Shown: one piece after another, positions 48,587-59,549 of the stretch
How positions within the stretch are numbered: the first letter of the stretch is position 1
Layout of the letters: the number at the start of each line of letters is the position of its first letter
NCBI GenBank assembly: GCA_016207095.1
Contig: JACQQF010000043.1
Coordinates: forward strand, 1-64,000
Direction: 5' to 3'
From: Candidatus Methylomirabilota bacterium
GTDB taxonomy: Bacteria > Methylomirabilota > Methylomirabilia > Methylomirabilales > Methylomirabilaceae
DNA length: 64,000 nt
Translations under genes and position numbers: made by a program
Notes under the pieces: generated by a model
The model's input: the letters and a program-made list of their open reading frames with translations, nothing else
The model's database searches: none
Told to the model about the DNA's origin: nothing

Positions 48587-49948
48587 GTGAATCGCATCCT
48601 GCTCATCAATCCGAACTGGACTGGGATCCAGAAACAAAAGCAAGGTCAGTTTAAGCGGGCCTGGCCGCCGCTTGACCTAGCCCAGGCTGCCGCCTTGCTC
48701 GAGCGGGGGGGCTTCGTCGTTCGCCTGCTGGACAATAATGTCGAGCGGGTGTCCCATGAGGCGCTCGGCGCGCTGGCGCGCGAACACGACCGCGTCTTCG
48801 TGACCTCCACGCCCTACGACCGCTGGCAGTGTCCCGCGCTCGACATTAGCTTCTTCTATGACACCATCCGCCACATCCCCAGGGAGAAGCTCTATATCAT
48901 GGGCGCTCACGTTAGCGAGCGTCCCGAGACCTCGTTGAAGGCAACGGGCGCAAGGGCGGCCATCATCCATGAGCCCGAATATACGATCCTGGATATTTGC
49001 CAGCGCGACCTCTACCCCGACCAGAAGGGCGTCGCCACGCTTGAGGACAGCAAGCTCGTCAGGGGGCCCGAGGTGGAGTTCTTGGACGACATGGACACCA
49101 TGCCGTATCCGGCGTTTCACCACCTCCCGATGCAGCGGTACTACTACGAGGTGATGGGACGTGATTTCGCTCTCCTCGAGTCTTCCCGAGGCTGTCCCTA
49201 CCGCTGCACCTTCTGCTACCTGGGGATGTACGGTCCCCAATTCCGGCAGAAGGGCGTCGAGCGCTTTGTTGATGAGGTCGAGTGGGCGGTCCGCACCCAC
49301 GGCCTGCGCAACATCTACTTCATGGACCTTGAGTTCGCTCTGAACAAGAAGTTCGTCATCCCGTTCTGTGAGGCGCTCATCAAACGGGATCTCGGTCTGC
49401 AGTGGTGCTGCCAGACCCGCGTCAACGATGTGAACGATGAGGTTCTGTCCCTGATGAAGCGAGCCGGCTGCAAGTTGATCCACTTCGGCGTCGAGGCGGG
49501 CACGGAGCACATCCTGGCAGCCACCAACAAGAAGATCACTATGGCCGACGCCGAGCGCGCCATGCGGTTGATGAAGAAATACGAGATGCAATCGGTCCTC
49601 TTCATGAACCTCGGCTTCCCCGGCGAGACGATAGAGGACATGGACGCCACGATCGACTTTGCCATTCGACTCAGCCCGACGTTCGTTTCGTTCCACCTGA
49701 TCGTTCCGTTCCCGGGGACGAAGTTGGCCGAGATGGTCGGGATCGATGAGAAGGAATTGCCGCCAGAGCGCTATCCACAGTTCAACGACAAGGCGACGGT
49801 TGATTTGCCGACGCTGAAGCGACAATTGCGCAAGGCCTACCGTCGATTCTACCTCCGACCCGGTTACATCTGGCATTCCCTGGTCGGAAGCGAGCGCCAG
49901 TTTCTGTGGGACAAGTGCAAGATCCTGTACAACCTGGTCGGTACATAA
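48587..49948 (+). CDS. B12-binding-type radical SAM enzyme
   Basis: About 453 residues if started at the GTG at 48587; an in-frame TTG at 48521 is the alternative. The N-terminal cobalamin-type domain (LLINPN, then WPPLDLAQAAALLERGGF) precedes CPYRCTFC (Cys203, Cys207, Cys210). GVEAGTEHILAATNKKI and FLNLGFPGE-like segments follow. It is the third such enzyme in the window, but not close to the other two. In this operon-like series it may modify a lipid or sugar. Confidence 0.85.
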   Translation: MNRILLINPNWTGIQKQKQGQFKRAWPPLDLAQAAALLERGGFVVRLLDNNVERVSHEALGALAREHDRVFVTSTPYDRWQCPALDISFFYDTIRHIPREKLYIMGAHVSERPETSLKATGARAAIIHEPEYTILDICQRDLYPDQKGVATLEDSKLVRGPEVEFLDDMDTMPYPAFHHLPMQRYYYEVMGRDFALLESSRGCPYRCTFCYLGMYGPQFRQKGVERFVDEVEWAVRTHGLRNIYFMDLEFALNKKFVIPFCEALIKRDLGLQWCCQTRVNDVNDEVLSLMKRAGCKLIHFGVEAGTEHILAATNKKITMADAERAMRLMKKYEMQSVLFMNLGFPGETIEDMDATIDFAIRLSPTFVSFHLIVPFPGTKLAEMVGIDEKELPPERYPQFNDKATVDLPTLKRQLRKAYRRFYLRPGYIWHSLVGSERQFLWDKCKILYNLVGT

Positions 49949-52056: not shown

Positions 52057-53088
52057 CTAGGTCACCAGCACCAGCTTGCCGAAAACCTTGCGGTCCTCCA
52101 TCACCCGTTGCGCTTCCGAGGCTTCTTTGAGCGGAAAGACGCGGTCCACCACCGGCCGAAGCCTTCCGCGCTCCACCTCCCTCAGGATCTCGAAGAGGTC
52201 CGCCTTGGAGCCCATGTGGGCACCCATAATCGCCACCTGCCGCATGAAAAGGTAACGAAGATCGGTCTGGACAAGGTAGCCGGCGGTGGCCCCACAGGTG
52301 ACCAGTCGGCCGCCCGCTGCCAGGGCGGGGATTAACTTCTCGAACACGGGCCCGCCCACATGCTCGAAGATGACATCCACGCCCCGCCTCGCCGTCAGGC
52401 GCCGTACCTCGGCGACGAGGTCCTGAGTTGTGTAGTCGATCCCCTCATCGGCACCGAGCCCCTTGGCCTTTCCGAGCTTGTCCCCGGTGCTGGCGGTGGC
52501 GATGACGCGGGCGCCACACAGCTTGGCGATCTGTACTGCAGCGCTTCCAACCCCGCTTCCGGCACCCATCACGAGCACGTCTTCGCCGGTCCTCACCCTG
52601 GCAAGCGTCACCAGCATGTTCCACGCTGTCAGGAACGTGAGTGGAATCGCGGCTGCGGCCTCGAAGGTCATCCCCTCCGGCAGTGGCAGGATATTCACCT
52701 CCGGCACTTTGACGTACTCCGCGTACCCGCCGTCGATCCGGTACCCGCCGACGATCTCGTAAGAGCGGCAGAGGTTATCGCGACCCGAGAGGCAGTGAGC
52801 ACACTGCCCGCAGCTAATCCCCGGTGAGACGACCACGGGTTGACCGGTCTTGATCCTGGTCACGATGCTTCCCAGCCCCGCCACTTCACCGGCGATGTCG
52901 CACCCGGAGATGTGGGGCAGCGGGACCTTGACCCCCGGCATCCCCTTTCGGGTCCAGACATCCAAATGATTCAGGGCACAGGCCTTCACCCGCACCAGTA
53001 CCTCATGCGGGGCGATCACCGGATCCGGGGCGTCCTCATACCTCAGGACCTCGGGCCCTCCATGCTCGTGAAATCGGACCGCTTTCAT
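52057..53088 (-). CDS. Zinc-type MDR dehydrogenase/quinone oxidoreductase
   Basis: 343 residues from the ATG at 53088 (AGAGGA upstream). GroES-like N-terminal domain with the catalytic-zinc region ISGCDIAGEV and the structural-zinc cysteines of CGQCAHCLSGRDNLC. The NAD(P) Rossmann motif is GAGSGVGSAAVQIAK. It oxidises or reduces an alcohol, aldehyde or enone with NAD(P). The gene is in line with the SDR gene upstream, possibly for one catabolic route. Confidence 0.9.
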   Translation of the reverse strand: MKAVRFHEHGGPEVLRYEDAPDPVIAPHEVLVRVKACALNHLDVWTRKGMPGVKVPLPHISGCDIAGEVAGLGSIVTRIKTGQPVVVSPGISCGQCAHCLSGRDNLCRSYEIVGGYRIDGGYAEYVKVPEVNILPLPEGMTFEAAAAIPLTFLTAWNMLVTLARVRTGEDVLVMGAGSGVGSAAVQIAKLCGARVIATASTGDKLGKAKGLGADEGIDYTTQDLVAEVRRLTARRGVDVIFEHVGGPVFEKLIPALAAGGRLVTCGATAGYLVQTDLRYLFMRQVAIMGAHMGSKADLFEILREVERGRLRPVVDRVFPLKEASEAQRVMEDRKVFGKLVLVT

Positions 53089-53156
53089 GATTTGTCCTCT
53101 CACAGATCCTTAGAAGGTCGTGACATGGTCACGCGTGGGACCCGGAACGCTCTCGT

Positions 53157-54063: not shown

Positions 54064-55617
54064 TCAGTCTATGCGGTAGTGAGAACCTCGGCTCTGCCGA
54101 CATTCCACCGCAGCAAGCAGGATGGTAAGCGCAGTTTGAATGCCGTTTCGGAGGCCGATCATGGCATCACTGATCTCGGCTCTTTCATAGAATCGTGAGA
54201 TCTCAAGATCCAGCTCCCGCAAGATCTCATGGGCACGGTTGAGCCGTTTCGTGCTGCGGATGAGGCCCACGTAATTCCACATGGTCTGCTGAATGCTCAG
54301 CCAATCCTGCGCGATTAGCGCTGGATCGACGGGCTCACGCTCATATCGCCACTCAGCGATGCGGGGAAAATAGAAATCGCCACCTTGCGCGATGAGCTCT
54401 GCAGCATCGGCGCCTGCCCGAGTTCCCCAGACCAAGCATTCCAACAGCGAGGTGCTCGCCAGCCGGTTGGCCCCATGTAACCCAGAACAGGAGACCTCTC
54501 CGACGGCGCGCAGGCGATACAGGCTCGATCGTCCCCACTCGTCAACGGCGATTCCGCCGCAACTGTAGTGCGCGGCCGGGACAACCGGAATCGGGTCTCT
54601 TGTAATATCAACACCATAATTCAAACAGTGGGCATAGATCCCCGGGAATCGTTCACGGATCTGATCGGCTGGTTTATGGGAGATGTCGAGATGCGCGCAG
54701 GGCTCACCGGATTCCAGCATCATCTGATGAATCCCGCGCGCCACAATGTCTCGTGGCGCAAGCGACCCATCGGGGTGAAAGTCTGACAGAAACTCCCGCC
54801 CACGGCTATTCACCAGGCGCGCCCCTTCACCCCGCATCGCTTCAGAGATAAGGAAGCGGCCGCTAGGGTGGAAGAATGTTGTGGGGTGGAACTGCACATA
54901 TTGCATGTTGATGCAACGGGTACCGGCCCGGTACGCCATCGCAATGCCATCGCCTCGGGCGCCCGGGGGATTCGTGGTATGCAAAAAGACGCGTCCAAGC
55001 CCACCCGTCGCCAGGATGGTCTCTTTCGCAAAGATGGGAAAGATCTCACCGCTTGCCTGATCAAGCACATATGCCCCAAAGCACGTAGGAGGGCGATAGA
55101 CATCAAGCGGCTCGACCGAATGGTGAGGCATGGTGAGGAGATCGACCGCGGTGGCAGCGGATACCAGCTTAACCCTTGGATGAGAGGATACCTTTTCGAC
55201 AAACACTCGCTCGATCGCCGAGCCCGTCTGATCCTTATGATGAAGGATGCGCGGAAGCGAATGCGCTGCCTCAGAGGCAAGATCCCATCGTGTCGAATCC
55301 CCTGAGGTCTCATCGAACTGGACGCCAAGCTCATCGATAAGGATGTCTTTGACGAGTCTTGGGCCCTCGCGGCTGAGCAGCAAAGCGGCCTCCGGGTGGC
55401 TTAAGCCCGCGCCAGCAGCCAGAATATCGGCCACCAGCCTTTGGGGGGAATCGTTCTCCCCCTGATAAATGATACCGCCCTGTGCCCAAAACGTATTGCT
55501 CTCTTCCGGCCGTGACGATCTCGTCAGCAGTGTCACCTCGACGTTGCGTTTAGCAGCAGCCCAGGCCGCAGCGCACCCAGCGAGTCCGCTTCCGATGATC
55601 AGGATATCGGTCTTCAT
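54064..55617 (-). CDS. nadB: L-aspartate oxidase
   Basis: 517 residues. The FAD-binding N-terminus is IIGSGLAGCAAAWAAAKR; SNTFWAQGGIIYQG, HTTNPPGARGDGIAMAYRAG and HYSCGGIAVDEWGRSS are the conserved flavin and substrate blocks of NadB. It oxidises L-aspartate to iminoaspartate for the quinolinate synthase encoded two genes upstream. It is the last gene of nadA-nadC-nadB, with a 103-base gap to nadC. Confidence 0.94.
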   Translation of the reverse strand: MKTDILIIGSGLAGCAAAWAAAKRNVEVTLLTRSSRPEESNTFWAQGGIIYQGENDSPQRLVADILAAGAGLSHPEAALLLSREGPRLVKDILIDELGVQFDETSGDSTRWDLASEAAHSLPRILHHKDQTGSAIERVFVEKVSSHPRVKLVSAATAVDLLTMPHHSVEPLDVYRPPTCFGAYVLDQASGEIFPIFAKETILATGGLGRVFLHTTNPPGARGDGIAMAYRAGTRCINMQYVQFHPTTFFHPSGRFLISEAMRGEGARLVNSRGREFLSDFHPDGSLAPRDIVARGIHQMMLESGEPCAHLDISHKPADQIRERFPGIYAHCLNYGVDITRDPIPVVPAAHYSCGGIAVDEWGRSSLYRLRAVGEVSCSGLHGANRLASTSLLECLVWGTRAGADAAELIAQGGDFYFPRIAEWRYEREPVDPALIAQDWLSIQQTMWNYVGLIRSTKRLNRAHEILRELDLEISRFYERAEISDAMIGLRNGIQTALTILLAAVECRQSRGSHYRID

Positions 55618-55720: not shown

Positions 55721-56584
55721 TCACGCCGGCTCAATCTCGAAACCGATGTCAACAGCCGGAGCGGAATGCGTCAATGCGCCGACGGAGATCCAGTCCACGC
55801 CAGCCTCTGCAAATCGTCGAACATTGTCAAGCGCGATCCCGCCTGACGCCTCCACCAATGGCTTCCCGGTGGTGCGGTGAGCATGCACCATCTCCACCGC
55901 TTGTCGCACCATCCCAGGATTCATATTATCGAGAAGAATCGCGTCAACCTCCCACTTCAACGCCTCCTGCAATTCTTCAATCGTGGTCACCTCCACTTCA
56001 AGCCAAGCGACGCGGTCCCTGAAGGATCGAGCAGCCTCGATCGCGGGGTGGATGCCGCCCGCAATCTTGATATGGTTCTCCTTGATCAAGATCGCGTCGT
56101 CAAGCCCAAGACGGTGATTGAAGCCACCCCCCACAGTGACAGCGTACTTGTCGAAGGCCCGAAGTCCCGGCGCGGTCTTTCGAGTGTCCAGGATCCTGGC
56201 ATGCGTCCCATGGACAGCATCGACAAACTGTTTCGTGAGGGTTGCGATTCCGCTCAATCGCTGGAGGAGATTGGTCGCCACGCGTTCCCCGGTCAGCAGC
56301 GCCCGGGCTTGCCCCCGCACTTGCGCAGGTCGCTCGTCCTTGCCGAGACGATCGCCATCACGATGCGAACGCTCAACGGCCAACCCCTCATCCAGGAGCG
56401 TGAGCACTTCGATCGCGACATCGATGCCCGCCAGCACCAGAGGGGTCTTGGCCACAAAGTATCCAACACCTTTCCGCTCGACTGGAACAATGGCGAGGGT
56501 GGTAACGTCACCCCGACCGATATCTTCTTCTAGAAACGTTCTAAGGATTTCACGGCGGGCGGCGCGATCGATCGGTTGCAACAT
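55721..56584 (-). CDS. nadC: Nicotinate-nucleotide pyrophosphorylase (carboxylating)
   Basis: 287 residues. LLQRLSGIATLT, ILDTRKTAPGLRAFDKYAV and GGGFNHRLGLDDAILIKENH are the strongly conserved parts around the quinolinate and PRPP sites. It converts quinolinate to nicotinate mononucleotide. It sits between nadA (23 bases upstream) and nadB. Confidence 0.95.
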   Translation of the reverse strand: MLQPIDRAARREILRTFLEEDIGRGDVTTLAIVPVERKGVGYFVAKTPLVLAGIDVAIEVLTLLDEGLAVERSHRDGDRLGKDERPAQVRGQARALLTGERVATNLLQRLSGIATLTKQFVDAVHGTHARILDTRKTAPGLRAFDKYAVTVGGGFNHRLGLDDAILIKENHIKIAGGIHPAIEAARSFRDRVAWLEVEVTTIEELQEALKWEVDAILLDNMNPGMVRQAVEMVHAHRTTGKPLVEASGGIALDNVRRFAEAGVDWISVGALTHSAPAVDIGFEIEPA

Positions 56585-56607: not shown

Positions 56608-57570
56608 TCAGCTCATTTCCAGCATACGCTGGATCGGCTTAAATGCGCGCAGCCGAAGCCCTTCATCCAATGTAATCTCGGGTGTACGGTTTTTCATACA
56701 CAGGTAGAGCTTCTCAAGGGTGTTGAGTTTCATATAGGGACACTCGTTGCAGGCGCAGTCGCCTTCGGGTGGGGCCGGAATGAATGTCTTGTTCGGACAG
56801 GCCTTCTCCATCTGATGGATGATCCCTGACTCGGTAGCGATGATGAACTCGCCGTCCGAACTCTGCTTGACATAATTCAATATCCCGCTCGTTGAGCCAA
56901 CGTAATCAGCATGCTGAAGCACGCGCTGTTCGCACTCGGGATGCGCAAGGACCTTTGCGCCCGGATGGCGTACTTTGAGGTGGATGAGTTTTCTCTCGGA
57001 GAACATCTCGTGAACGACGCAAACGCCAGACCACAGAACCAGCTCGCGACCGGTCTTTTTGATGAGGTAACGGCCTAGATTCTGATCCGGCGCAAAAATA
57101 ATGGGCTGGTCCATGGGGATACGGCTGAGGATCTTTACTGCATTGCTCGAGGTGCAAATGATATCACTCATCGCCTTGATTTCAGCGCTGCAATTGATAT
57201 AGCTCATGACGATGTGATCCGGGTACTTCTCCCTAAAACGCTTGAACTGATGCGGTGGGCAGCCCTCCGCCAGTGAGCACCCGGCCTTCAAGTCCGGGAT
57301 CAAGACCTGCTTTGATGGGTTGAGAATCTTCGCCGTCTCAGCCATAAAGTGCACGCCCGCAAAGACGATGACGTCAGCGTTGGTCTTGGCCGCATGCTGA
57401 GAGAGTTGCAAGCTGTCGCCGATGAGATCGGCCACGTCTTGAATCTCCGACTCTTGATAGTAATGCGCCAAGATCACAGCGTGCAGATCTTTCTTGAGGC
57501 GCTGAATCTCTTCCTCGAGATCCATCAGGGCAGTGAGCCCATATTCTTTGACCGCGCCGTCGGCTTTCAT
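56608..57570 (-). CDS. nadA: Quinolinate synthase
   Basis: 320 residues with the triplicated fold of NadA. The three cysteines that bind the oxygen-sensitive 4Fe-4S cluster are in [19 protein letters not shown] and [32 protein letters not shown] holds substrate-binding His and Tyr residues. It condenses iminoaspartate with dihydroxyacetone phosphate. It is the first gene of the NAD operon; an extended -10 promoter lies about 40 bases upstream. Confidence 0.95.
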
Positions 57571-57853: not shown

Positions 57854-58108
57854 TCAGTTGAGGACCCTCAGGATGTCGCCTCGCATCTTGCGGAGTGCCT
57901 TGGGGCTCATCATGAGAAAATGACGGACAGTATACCCGCAGACTCGACAGCGCTTGTAGATATAGAGCCAGTTTCCGTCCTCCTCGACGTCCCCCACCTG
58001 TTCCATGCCCGAGGGACAGCAATCATTGGGCTGCGGTGGAGAGACAATCCGTTCAGGGTAGGCGTTGATCGCCGATTTTCGTTCATCATATTCCACGATG
58101 CTTGCCAT
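57854..58108 (-). CDS. Small CC/CxxC zinc-ribbon-like protein, paralogue 1
   Basis: 84 residues. Cys30-Cys31 and Cys54-x2-Cys57 probably bind zinc in a ribbon. The N-terminus MASIVEYDE and the middle IYKRCRVCGYTVR are nearly shared with the protein encoded at 58465-58734: by hand I count 34 identities in the first 62 aligned positions without a gap. The C-terminal tail is helical and differs. The function is unknown. The gene has its own TATAAT with an operator-like site in the promoter spacer and a leader of about 130 bases. Confidence 0.78.
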   Translation of the reverse strand: MASIVEYDERKSAINAYPERIVSPPQPNDCCPSGMEQVGDVEEDGNWLYIYKRCRVCGYTVRHFLMMSPKALRKMRGDILRVLN

Positions 58109-58245
58109 CGATCTTTCTCCTTCTCCTTTCGTCGTGCCGCCCAGACGAACACCTTCCTGATGCTCTGACTCGATTATTCAAAGCTCATCTCCATCGTCTC
58201 AGCTCTCGAAGCGTTCGGGGATACCGCACTGCATGATTAGACTTG

Positions 58246-58268
58246 ATTATACTAACCAGTTGGTACAA
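58246..58268 (-). promoter_or_regulatory. Promoter and operator-like site of paralogue 1
   Basis: A perfect TATAAT on the minus strand (58246-58251) is preceded by a 17-base spacer that contains AACCAGTTGGTACA (58254-58267, as read on the plus strand). A repressor bound there would block RNA polymerase directly. The same 14-base pattern recurs at 58353, 58858 and 59501. Confidence 0.6.
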
Positions 58269-58278
58269 TTCACATTTC

Positions 58279-58332
58279 AAAAAAAAGCGGGAATATAACT
58301 ACTAGTTGATAACCTCCAGGCCCGCTTTTTTT
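58279..58332 (-). terminator. Terminator-like hairpin with long loop
   Basis: AAAAAAAAGCGGG and CCCGCTTTTTTT form a strong stem with A and T runs on both sides, so it could stop transcription in either direction. The loop of about 30 bases contains GGAGG on the minus strand. It lies directly downstream of the promoter-like site at 58345. Confidence 0.7.
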
Positions 58333-58344
58333 CTAATGCCTTCT

Positions 58345-58366
58345 TGTATACCAACCAATTGGTACA
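58345..58366 (-). promoter_or_regulatory. Second operator-like site with TATACA, no gene behind it
   Basis: TATACA on the minus strand (58345-58350) sits next to AACCAATTGGTACA (58353-58366), whose core ACCAATTGGT is a perfect palindrome. The layout copies that at 58246-58268, but the transcript would run straight into the hairpin at 58279-58332 after about 10-60 bases, without an ORF. Confidence 0.5.
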
Positions 58367-58464
58367 TGCTTCCCCGAAGAGCTAATTCTGTCAAGCGAGA
58401 ATGTGCTGGAGGGTCTCATTTCGTTTCAACCCTTCAGACCGCATCCTTGCCCACCAAGATAGGG

Positions 58465-58734
58465 TCAATTCTGGCCCCCAACCATCTCCTGGTAGTCGAA
58501 GCGAGATCCTTTCTTAATGATCACTCGTGGATCGCGTGCGACGACTTGGCGTACTGTAAAGCCGCACTTCTTGCAGCGCTTGTAAATGAAGCTCCATCCC
58601 TCTTCACGCTGTTCACTCCCAATCTGCTCCATCTTTGAGTAGCAGCAGAGGCCTGGTGCCCGCGGTGAGATTATACGATCAGGATAGGCATTGGTTGGCT
58701 TCTTCGCATCAGTGTATTCAACAATGGTCGCCAT
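58465..58734 (-). CDS. Small CC/CxxC zinc-ribbon-like protein, paralogue 2
   Basis: 89 residues from the ATG at 58734; an upstream extension of the frame has no credible start. Cys30-Cys31 and Cys54-x2-Cys57 lie at the same positions as in paralogue 1. MATIVEYTD and YKRCKKCGFTVR match that protein, and the basic tail ending in GGQN differs. It lies between the TetR gene and paralogue 1, all on the minus strand, with an operator-like site about 125 bases upstream of its start. Confidence 0.78.
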   Translation of the reverse strand: MATIVEYTDAKKPTNAYPDRIISPRAPGLCCYSKMEQIGSEQREEGWSFIYKRCKKCGFTVRQVVARDPRVIIKKGSRFDYQEMVGGQN

Positions 58735-58857
58735 GTTGTGTCTCGCCCCCGTAAAATCTACATCTGCCGGTGTAAGATACAACCATCCACGCTCTCCATC
58801 CCCCACCCTGCTTTGGCAACTTCGACTCCCTTCCATACATCTGTATACGATATGACC

Positions 58858-58871
58858 GTACTATTGGTACA
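58858..58871 (-). promoter_or_regulatory. Third operator-like site, upstream of paralogue 2
   Basis: GTACTATTGGTACA on the plus strand agrees with the other sites in the TTGGTACA half and less in the left half. It lies between the TetR stop and paralogue 2, where the promoter of the latter is expected. Confidence 0.5.
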
Positions 58872-58890
58872 ATAGTTTAATCGGGAAAAT

Positions 58891-59484
58891 CTATGTATGG
58901 CTGATATACAGTCTGATGTGTGTTTTCAGCTCTTTAAAGCAGTTTTCTAGGACCTTGATGTCTTTTTTTACTTTCGAGAGAAGGATGCCACCTTCGACGC
59001 CAGCAATGACGAACTGGGCAAGCCGAGTTGGGTCCATATGGTCATTGAACTGGCCGGAGATCTTTGCTTGTTGCAAAACGCCTGCCACTCTAATCCGCCA
59101 ATCTTCAAATACCTCCTGAAACTTCCTCCGGAACCCCTCATGAATATCACTCATCTCCATTGCCATATTGCCCATCAGGCAGCCGCCTGAACAGTTTCGT
59201 TGCCGATGCAGCTCTAGGATGATATCGAGGAAGTCCTCCAACTCTATCAAGGCATTCTTTGTGTTTGAGAAGGCCTTTCCCAGAACATGGTCTGAGAATC
59301 GCCTCAAGTGGCTTTCTATAATTGCATAGCCCAAATCTTCCTTGCTTTTGAAATAATAGTAGAAGCTGCCTTTCTTGACTCCGCTTGCCTGGAGAACCGC
59401 ATCTACGCTGGTATTATTGAAACCGCGAAGGCTGATCAGACCTGAGGCGACTTCTACGATGTGGTCTTTGGTGTTGGCCATCAT
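58891..59484 (-). CDS. TetR/AcrR-family transcriptional regulator
   Basis: 197 residues (ATG at 59484, or the next ATG at 59481 with better spacing from GGAG). The helix-turn-helix runs through ISLRGFNNTSVDAVLQASGVKKGSFYYYF. The ligand domain has NCSGGCLMGNMAMEMSD, a motif common in TetR proteins that sense small electrophiles or hydrophobic compounds; the two cysteines could be redox or thiol sensors. A promoter and an operator-like site lie just upstream, so it probably represses itself and the two small zinc-ribbon genes. Confidence 0.9.
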   Translation of the reverse strand: MMANTKDHIVEVASGLISLRGFNNTSVDAVLQASGVKKGSFYYYFKSKEDLGYAIIESHLRRFSDHVLGKAFSNTKNALIELEDFLDIILELHRQRNCSGGCLMGNMAMEMSDIHEGFRRKFQEVFEDWRIRVAGVLQQAKISGQFNDHMDPTRLAQFVIAGVEGGILLSKVKKDIKVLENCFKELKTHIRLYISHT

Positions 59485-59500
59485 TACTCCACAGAAAACT

Positions 59501-59549
59501 GACTGGTTGGTACAAATTCAATTTATCTTAGAGTAGATTCATATGTCAA
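59501..59549 (-). promoter_or_regulatory. TetR gene promoter with operator-like site
   Basis: On the minus strand a perfect TTGACA (59544-59549) and ATAAAT (59521-59526) are 17 bases apart. The site GACTGGTTGGTACA (59501-59514, plus strand) follows the -10 and covers the expected transcription start. This is the classical arrangement for autorepression. Confidence 0.7.

Follow-up and report, generated by a model that had tools for sequence, protein, structure and literature searches.

NemR of Escherichia coli, the TetR_C_13-type, thiol-sensing repressor of the nemR-nemA-gloA cluster, is released by oxidation; it uses a Cys106-Lys175 bond as a hypochlorite switch, and its Cys21 and Cys116 form an electrophile site, according to a review (PMC7464077). 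AcuR is the product of the autoregulated first gene of the acuR-acuI-dddL operon; an inverted repeat, TAATAGAC-n6-GTCTATTA, lies over the promoter and acrylate acts as the co-inducer (PMC3017554). ECF203 is among the extracytoplasmic function (ECF) sigma-factor groups considered to be under the control of a neighboring TetR. Here, we analyzed a 64,000-nucleotide stretch of DNA from Candidatus Methylomirabilota bacterium (contig JACQQF010000043.1, positions 1 to 64,000, referred to below as the window), in which a gene for a TetR-type repressor adjoins that of a small four-cysteine protein, sp2, and is accompanied by a gene for an sp2 paralog, sp1. The TetR gene is preceded by a conserved palindrome predicted to be its operator, and the repressor shares with NemR the positions of the hypochlorite-type pair. 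The combination of this TetR with an orphan four-cysteine family, and with a different cargo in a sister family, is new, and no paper naming the locus or the sp family was found in the open-license literature.

A first-pass annotation had reported four copies of a 14-base motif at the promoters of the TetR gene and of both small genes. The motif RACYRRTTGGTACA is exact at 58254, 58353, and 59501, but the copy at 58858 has 3 mismatches; at up to 2 mismatches it gave 9 matches against a shuffle mean of 1.5, and 9 was reached in none of 100 shuffles. The true site is a 16-base pair (bp) palindrome, TACYRACYRGTYRGTA, of which the 14-base motif is a part, and three of the four reported sites are, judged by their sequence, predicted operators (Table 1). 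The fourth contains only the half TTGGTACA. In 18 orthologous loci, palindromes in the interval between TetR and sp occurred at the level of chance: none at up to 3 mismatches (shuffle mean, 0.14), one at up to 4 (mean, 1.02), and three at up to 5 (mean, 5.0). The half-site at 58858 is therefore unsupported and was rejected as an operator, and a private operator for sp2 is likewise unsupported. The pattern ACCGACCGGTCGGT resembles the butyrolactone-receptor sites of Streptomyces.

The pairing of the palindrome with TetR was followed through 95 genomes of the phylum, in which f1 denotes the family of the window and f7 a large sister family within its class, likely the Rokubacteria group. Among 25 TetR loci examined, 24 had upstream DNA, the remaining one lying at a contig end. 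Conservation of the motif upstream of orthologous TetR genes, set beforehand as the test on which the proposal should stand or fall, was observed in all 24 at up to 2 mismatches, in 23 at up to one mismatch, and in exact form in 10; the corresponding shuffle means were 0.03, 0.0, and 0.0. When both strands were read, the exact palindrome was present in 51 of the 95 genomes, one copy in each, and a reversed-pattern control gave 0. By comparison of coordinates, 46 of these copies lie directly upstream of a TetR match and 2 upstream of sp1 (G000 and G011), while in the other 3 (G045, G047, and G067) the TetR match is below the cut-off, yet TetR sequence adjoins the site, being cut by a contig end in one of them. 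Because all 51 exact copies are found at TetR or sp1, they indicate one autoregulated locus and no wide regulon. At two of the three exceptional sites (G045 and G067; L212 and L214), TetR homology is split into two pieces in different frames directly below the exact operator, which would reflect either a pseudogene or an assembly error.

The search of the 2.9-Mb genome of the window led to a similar picture: the 13-base core ACYRRTTGGTACA is exact at three sites only, so that the suggested genome-wide search identified the known sites but gave no support to a regulon beyond the locus. An 18-base palindrome pattern at up to 2 mismatches gave 14 matches in the same genome, 6 of which come from the three sites, each read on both strands; the remaining 8 were rejected as regulon members because the reversed control produced 10 matches. 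One operator-like palindrome with two mismatches, at the end of an open frame (window 49926-49945), probably arose by chance.

The TetR protein matches TetR_C_13 (5.1e-20, 72.3 bits; cut-off 27) and TetR_N (4.1e-13, 49.3 bits; cut-off 24) of Pfam, both above the curated cut-offs, which places it in the TetR/AcrR group with TetR_C_13, and its predicted model has a predicted local distance difference test score (pLDDT) of 82.1. Relatives at E ≤ 1e-40 occur in 68 of the 95 genomes. Translation probably starts at the second ATG, at 59481, which is the conserved start. The promoter elements TTGACA/ATAAAT proposed earlier were recovered in part: our scan gave TTGACA-18-TAAATT, with 10 of 12 positions matched, but it yielded 4 promoter-like sites against 2.2 expected in shuffles. 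The −35 element is conserved, since a TTGAC-type sequence precedes the operator by 22 to 33 bp in 24 of 24 ortholog upstream regions, and the operator should therefore be placed at or just past the −10 region. A conserved operator at the repressor's own promoter is the hallmark of an autoregulated TetR operon, and for this regulatory anatomy, taken by itself, we consider autoregulation highly probable from the sequence comparisons.

The CSGGC motif that had been noticed in the ligand domain is indeed present, and none of the 25 orthologs lacks either of its cysteines, C98 and C102. C102 aligns with Cys106 of NemR, and K171, which is lysine in the protein of the window and in 22 of the 25 orthologs and arginine in the other 3 (G012, G020, and G029), aligns with Lys175; the solved NemR chain 4yze matches the TetR of the window at 2.5e-15. 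This alignment makes the sensing of electrophiles, which the annotation had raised, or of oxidants more plausible, and by analogy the TetR may work like NemR via the Cys106 route. The likeness has limits: the positions of NemR Cys21 and Cys116 are occupied in the orthologs by I, M, or V (24 of 24 with the column) and by S (25 of 25), respectively, and hence the hypochlorite-type pair alone is common to the two proteins, and the TetR was not filed as NemR. Moreover, NemR has T where the TetR has its extra invariant cysteine, C98, and its cargo is nemA and gloA, whereas the window-type TetR is followed by sp or by an ECF sigma factor. The NemR operator also differs from the palindrome of the window.

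Among named NCBIfam models, AcuR matches the TetR best (122.1 bits, 1.8e-35), and CurR and ScbR-type models also match, all of them below their cut-offs. These matches favor another mode of sensing, in which the TetR would bind a small-molecule ligand in the manner of AcuR or ScbR-type regulators, with the cysteines just lining the pocket and undergoing no thiol chemistry. The organization of acuR also resembles that of the present locus, for AcuR too is encoded by an autoregulated first gene with an inverted repeat over its promoter, and a gene for a zinc-type oxidoreductase-like protein (named from sequence; 52057-53103 in the window, on the strand of the nad genes) lies beyond nadB in most of the genus loci read. 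AcuI belongs to the same broad superfamily as that protein. Identity with AcuR was nevertheless rejected because the score is far below the cut-off of 247 and the operator of AcuR is unlike TACYRACYRGTYRGTA. The gene directly behind the TetR encodes sp or an ECF sigma factor, not a reductase such as acuI or a product such as that of dddL, and two cysteines four residues apart are invariant in every ortholog, which weighs against the ligand-only reading. We hold ligand sensing without thiol chemistry to be on the doubtful side.

In each of 18 loci (f1, f3, f4, and f5), sp lies downstream of TetR and is read in the same direction. The order has 19 genomes with a TetR match, and these loci account for all but one; in the exception (G001), the match to sp covers just its first ~25 residues, after which the contig appears to end. 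The gap between the two genes is 57 to 64 bp in f3 and 159 to 193 bp in f1 and f5, and in f4 it is 299 and 329 bp, where the start codon is uncertain. Given the constant order and strand and the short gaps in f3, co-transcription is the simpler account of sp2, which is probably expressed, as far as gene order tells, from the TetR promoter. The TetR might instead be solely an autorepressor with sp2 as a passenger expressed from another promoter, for example one shared with nadA. In G003, G004, G006, G008, and G013, sp2 and nadA have stayed together where no full TetR was detected, and this, like the lack of an operator between TetR and sp2, would fit such an arrangement, but the order and strand kept in those 18 loci, the short f3 gaps, and the operators placed before sp1 in two genomes make it quite improbable.

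The annotation's statement that the two small proteins are paralogs with equal cysteine spacing (30, 31, 54, and 57) was borne out, 36 of 74 residues being identical (E 9e-28). Of the loci read, only those of G000 and G011 contain another paralog, preceded by an operator, between sp2 and nadA, and in G011 the counterpart of sp1 also has the exact palindrome upstream; from its distribution, sp1 is an added copy. The TATAAT assigned to sp1 with a 17-base spacer abuts the operator at 58250-58265 as described, but its −35 element is poor (TGTGAA) and the promoter scan omits it. Between the two sp1 operators lies a hairpin with a uridine run. The region 58265-58345 folds with −21.2 kcal/mol (z −2.72), and 2 of 200 shuffles folded as well; the hairpin is absent from the list of a terminator scan that accepts loops of up to 8. 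Judged by its form, it could end the sp2 transcript.

In f7, the output behind the same switch is different. Among the 49 f7 genomes in which TetR was matched, 24 loci were examined, and in all of them an ECF sigma-factor gene follows TetR on the same strand. In the 23 loci tested for spacing, the nearest start codon lies between −4 and +58 bp relative to the TetR stop, the −4 overlap occurring in 11. The palindrome is upstream of TetR in all 23 loci with upstream DNA, 20 times exact and 3 times with one mismatch, and sigma-70 regions 2 and 4 were found in one representative. The layout of these loci matches that described for ECF203, whereas the window's own locus has no sigma gene. ECF relatives also occur elsewhere in the order (28 of 35 genomes), and by inspection no TetR-sp contig was among the contigs listed for them. 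Apparently autoregulated TetR-ECF sigma operons of this kind were seen at L090-L094, L036, L038, L039, L041, L045, and L194-L211, and at L090 and L092-L094 they lie close to genes that, named from their sequence, encode ribosomal protein L27 and an Obg-like GTPase.

The sp family was found in 34 of the 95 genomes, namely 32 of the 35 in the order holding Candidatus Methylomirabilis and the single genomes of f8 and f10. It was not found in the single f9 genome or in the 57 f7 genomes, where up to 52 first-look candidates were scored in most cases, nor in 6 f7 genomes for which the candidates from a single-sequence search were scored in full. A scan that reaches close relatives only gave 5 relatives of sp2, all from Methylomirabilis or Methylomirabilota, and none was found in viral contigs with a 32-row alignment or in plasmids with sp2 alone. 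In the domain set of 55, which is 59 rows less four truncated ones (L134, two of L139, and L140), CC and CxxC are kept throughout and nine further positions are invariant. A tree of these short domains separates a suf/htrA side (25 rows) from a TetR/nadA/dsbD side (30 rows) with values of 97/95, and 15 of its 50 inner branches are open, each side being open in part. As the annotation had said, no function is assigned to the small proteins: no profile library names the family, there was no NCBIfam match, the best PHROG match had an E of 0.038, and searches of solved structures with the family gave matches at chance level only (best E, 0.32 and 0.2). The nearest profile, RNHCP (PF12647), is below threshold; it matches 17 of 32 members weakly (best E, 7.8e-05), and sp2 reaches 22.9 bits against a cut-off of 24, over profile positions 45 to 83 of 90 only, that is, the half with the cysteine pairs. 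No paper on the RNHCP domain was found in the open-license literature.

The neighbors of sp genes, whose identities come from scanned representatives, with sufC named by context after a match to a general ATP-binding cassette model, point in part toward iron-sulfur (Fe-S) metabolism. Genes for mrp and/or suf products stand on the same strand as sp in 14 genomes (10 of f1, 3 of f3, and 1 of f6), in one of which (G002) sp is in two partial pieces, and a ferredoxin gene alone is beside sp, again on its strand, in one f3 genome. The order is receiver-domain protein-sp-mrp-sufB-sufC in f1 and sp-ferredoxin-mrp-iscA-sufB-sufC in f3. The htrA gene is just upstream of sp, on its strand, in 5 f5 genomes, an htrA-like frame is downstream of the TetR-sp pair in G017 and upstream, with weak scores, in G018 and G022, and dsbD is beside sp and on its strand in 3 f3 genomes. 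In the genus of the window, nadA, the product of which is quinolinate synthase, follows sp downstream, likewise on its strand, in 13 of 15 genomes (12 at their own loci and G001 via record L096, with the same match position); G009 has only a C-terminal remnant left, and G010 was outside the neighbor reading. Because many of these loci share a line of descent, the counts do not represent independent events.

These neighbors can be read in another way if sp1 and sp2 are zinc ribbons that bind nucleic acid or RNA polymerase, that is, small effectors in the role of the ECF sigma factor. In both lineages, the TetR would then govern a response at the level of transcription, and the neighboring Fe-S, HtrA, and DsbD genes would be target or partner operons, a proposal compatible with what we suggest for the TetR itself. 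Support comes from the sigma factor in the equal operon position in all f7 loci, from the mostly basic sp domains (median isoelectric point, 9.04; above 8 in 44 of 55), and from a model with three strands in which one cysteine pair precedes strand 1 and the CxxC pair lies between strands 2 and 3, so that the pairs surround the sheet. Lone receiver-domain proteins directly upstream of suf-linked sp in several genomes (L110, L111, L112, L115, L119, L122, L126, L128, and L130) would also suit a regulatory role. The model is weak, however (mean pLDDT, 59.1), and Foldseek returned nothing significant with it, the best E being 0.69 with NrdR chains among the top rows; no transcription-factor profile matched, sp1 is near neutral (7.65), and an equal position in the operon is no proof of an equal function. 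All told, a zinc-ribbon effector seems to us unlikely.

We favor, with slightly better than even confidence and leaving the exact role of sp aside, an autoregulated, thiol-switched TetR that controls a metal-binding stress protein. From the features compared directly, namely the operator, its pairing with TetR, the TetR-sp (or TetR-sigma) linkage, the conserved cysteines, and the Fe-S neighbors, we infer repression, release by thiol modification, binding of a metal or cluster, and a protective role for Fe-S or thiol proteins. The TetR would bind a 16- to 20-bp palindrome (TACYRACYRGTYRGTA) beginning close to the −10 box of the TetR promoter and would thereby silence its own transcript. That transcript would also include sp2 and, across much of the genus, may continue toward nadA. 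Modification of the C98 and C102 thiols by an oxidant or electrophile, with C102 and K171 working like Cys106 and Lys175 of NemR, would release the operator and turn on sp2, and in the species of the window and one close relative the extra paralog sp1 would be under operators of its own. The sp proteins would be small metal-binding proteins, either zinc-ribbon-like or carrying Fe-S, that help the cell under stress damaging to thiols and Fe-S clusters.

Several observations weigh against the thiol-switched repressor of a metal-binding protein. The electrophile cysteines of NemR have no counterpart in the TetR orthologs, and motifs like GC-L-x-G-N occur in other family members (3bru and 3qbm), and C102 is therefore not diagnostic by itself. 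Nor is the TetR bound to a metal protein as its partner, since in f7 it precedes an ECF sigma gene. Control by the TetR appears dispensable, as sp2 is kept beside nadA with no TetR match in G003, G006, G008, and G013, and as G004 has the TetR in fragments only, separated by a glycosyltransferase gene and a methyltransferase gene, with sp2 and nadA apparently intact (L081:2652-6400). The hairpin in the window parts sp2 from sp1, and read-through toward nadA is thus unsupported there. To these may be added the weakness of the sp model and the 15 of 55 tree rows labeled "other," where none of the listed neighbors was found; a gene neighborhood is, moreover, not equivalent to a function.

A broader proposal, which we put forward only tentatively and regard as rather less probable, is that the locus represents a conserved TetR module for thiol sensing whose output can be exchanged, being an ECF sigma factor in f7 and sp in the sister order, and that the sp family, with its places at suf/mrp, nadA, htrA, and dsbD loci, acts as a novel accessory to, or regulator of, Fe-S cluster supply. 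Whichever reading holds, an uncharacterized TetR can be assigned its operator almost with certainty in two large groups of a phylum known chiefly through metagenome assemblies, and the sensor can therefore be tested in the test tube or with a reporter in E. coli. For the orphan family there is now a lead to function, in Fe-S biogenesis or repair or in stress transcription, and the organisms of the methane-oxidizing lineage of Candidatus Methylomirabilis live with nitrite and nitric oxide, both of which damage thiols and Fe-S clusters. The alternation of a sigma factor and a small protein behind one conserved switch is a clear case of operon rewiring.

Table 1. Positions in the window of the features discussed in the text
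Feature	Position	Strand	Remarks
nadB	54064-55617		after nadC; named from sequence
nadC	55721-56584		after nadA; named from sequence
nadA (quinolinate synthase)	56608..57570	-	535-bit tblastn match to a representative with Pfam NadA at 3e-121
sp1, 84-amino acid paralog of sp2	57854..58108	-	between sp2 and nadA; two operators upstream
sp1 operator, second	58250..58265	-	exact palindrome, TATAAT directly after
Hairpin and U run, candidate sp2 terminator	58279..58333	-	between the two sp1 operators
sp1 operator, first	58349..58364	-	1 mismatch to TACYRACYRGTYRGTA
sp2, 89-amino acid CC/CxxC protein	58465..58734	-	adjoins TetR on the same strand
Fourth site of the first-pass annotation	58858..58871	+	half-site only; operator status unsupported by tests
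TetR repressor	58891..59484	-	TetR_N and TetR_C_13; C98-S-G-G-C102, K171
Operator at the TetR promoter	59497..59512	-	TACCAACCAGTCAGTT, 1 mismatch to TACYRACYRGTYRGTA; kept in orthologs
Sigma-70-type TetR promoter, predicted	59520..59549	-	TTGACA-18-TAAATT, 10/12 matches

Two further sp paralogs in the genome of the window stand in other surroundings. On contig C25 (L002:693-1424), 37 bp separate the sp paralog from the downstream gene of a different TetR, which is PsrA-like (136 bits, below the cut-off of 300). On contig C99 (L003:1787-2026), the paralog is followed after 13 bp, on the same strand, by a gene for an 80-amino acid protein that resembles precursors of ribosomally synthesized and post-translationally modified peptides of the Os1348 family in the NHLP clan (NF038399, 80.5 bits; cut-off 40).

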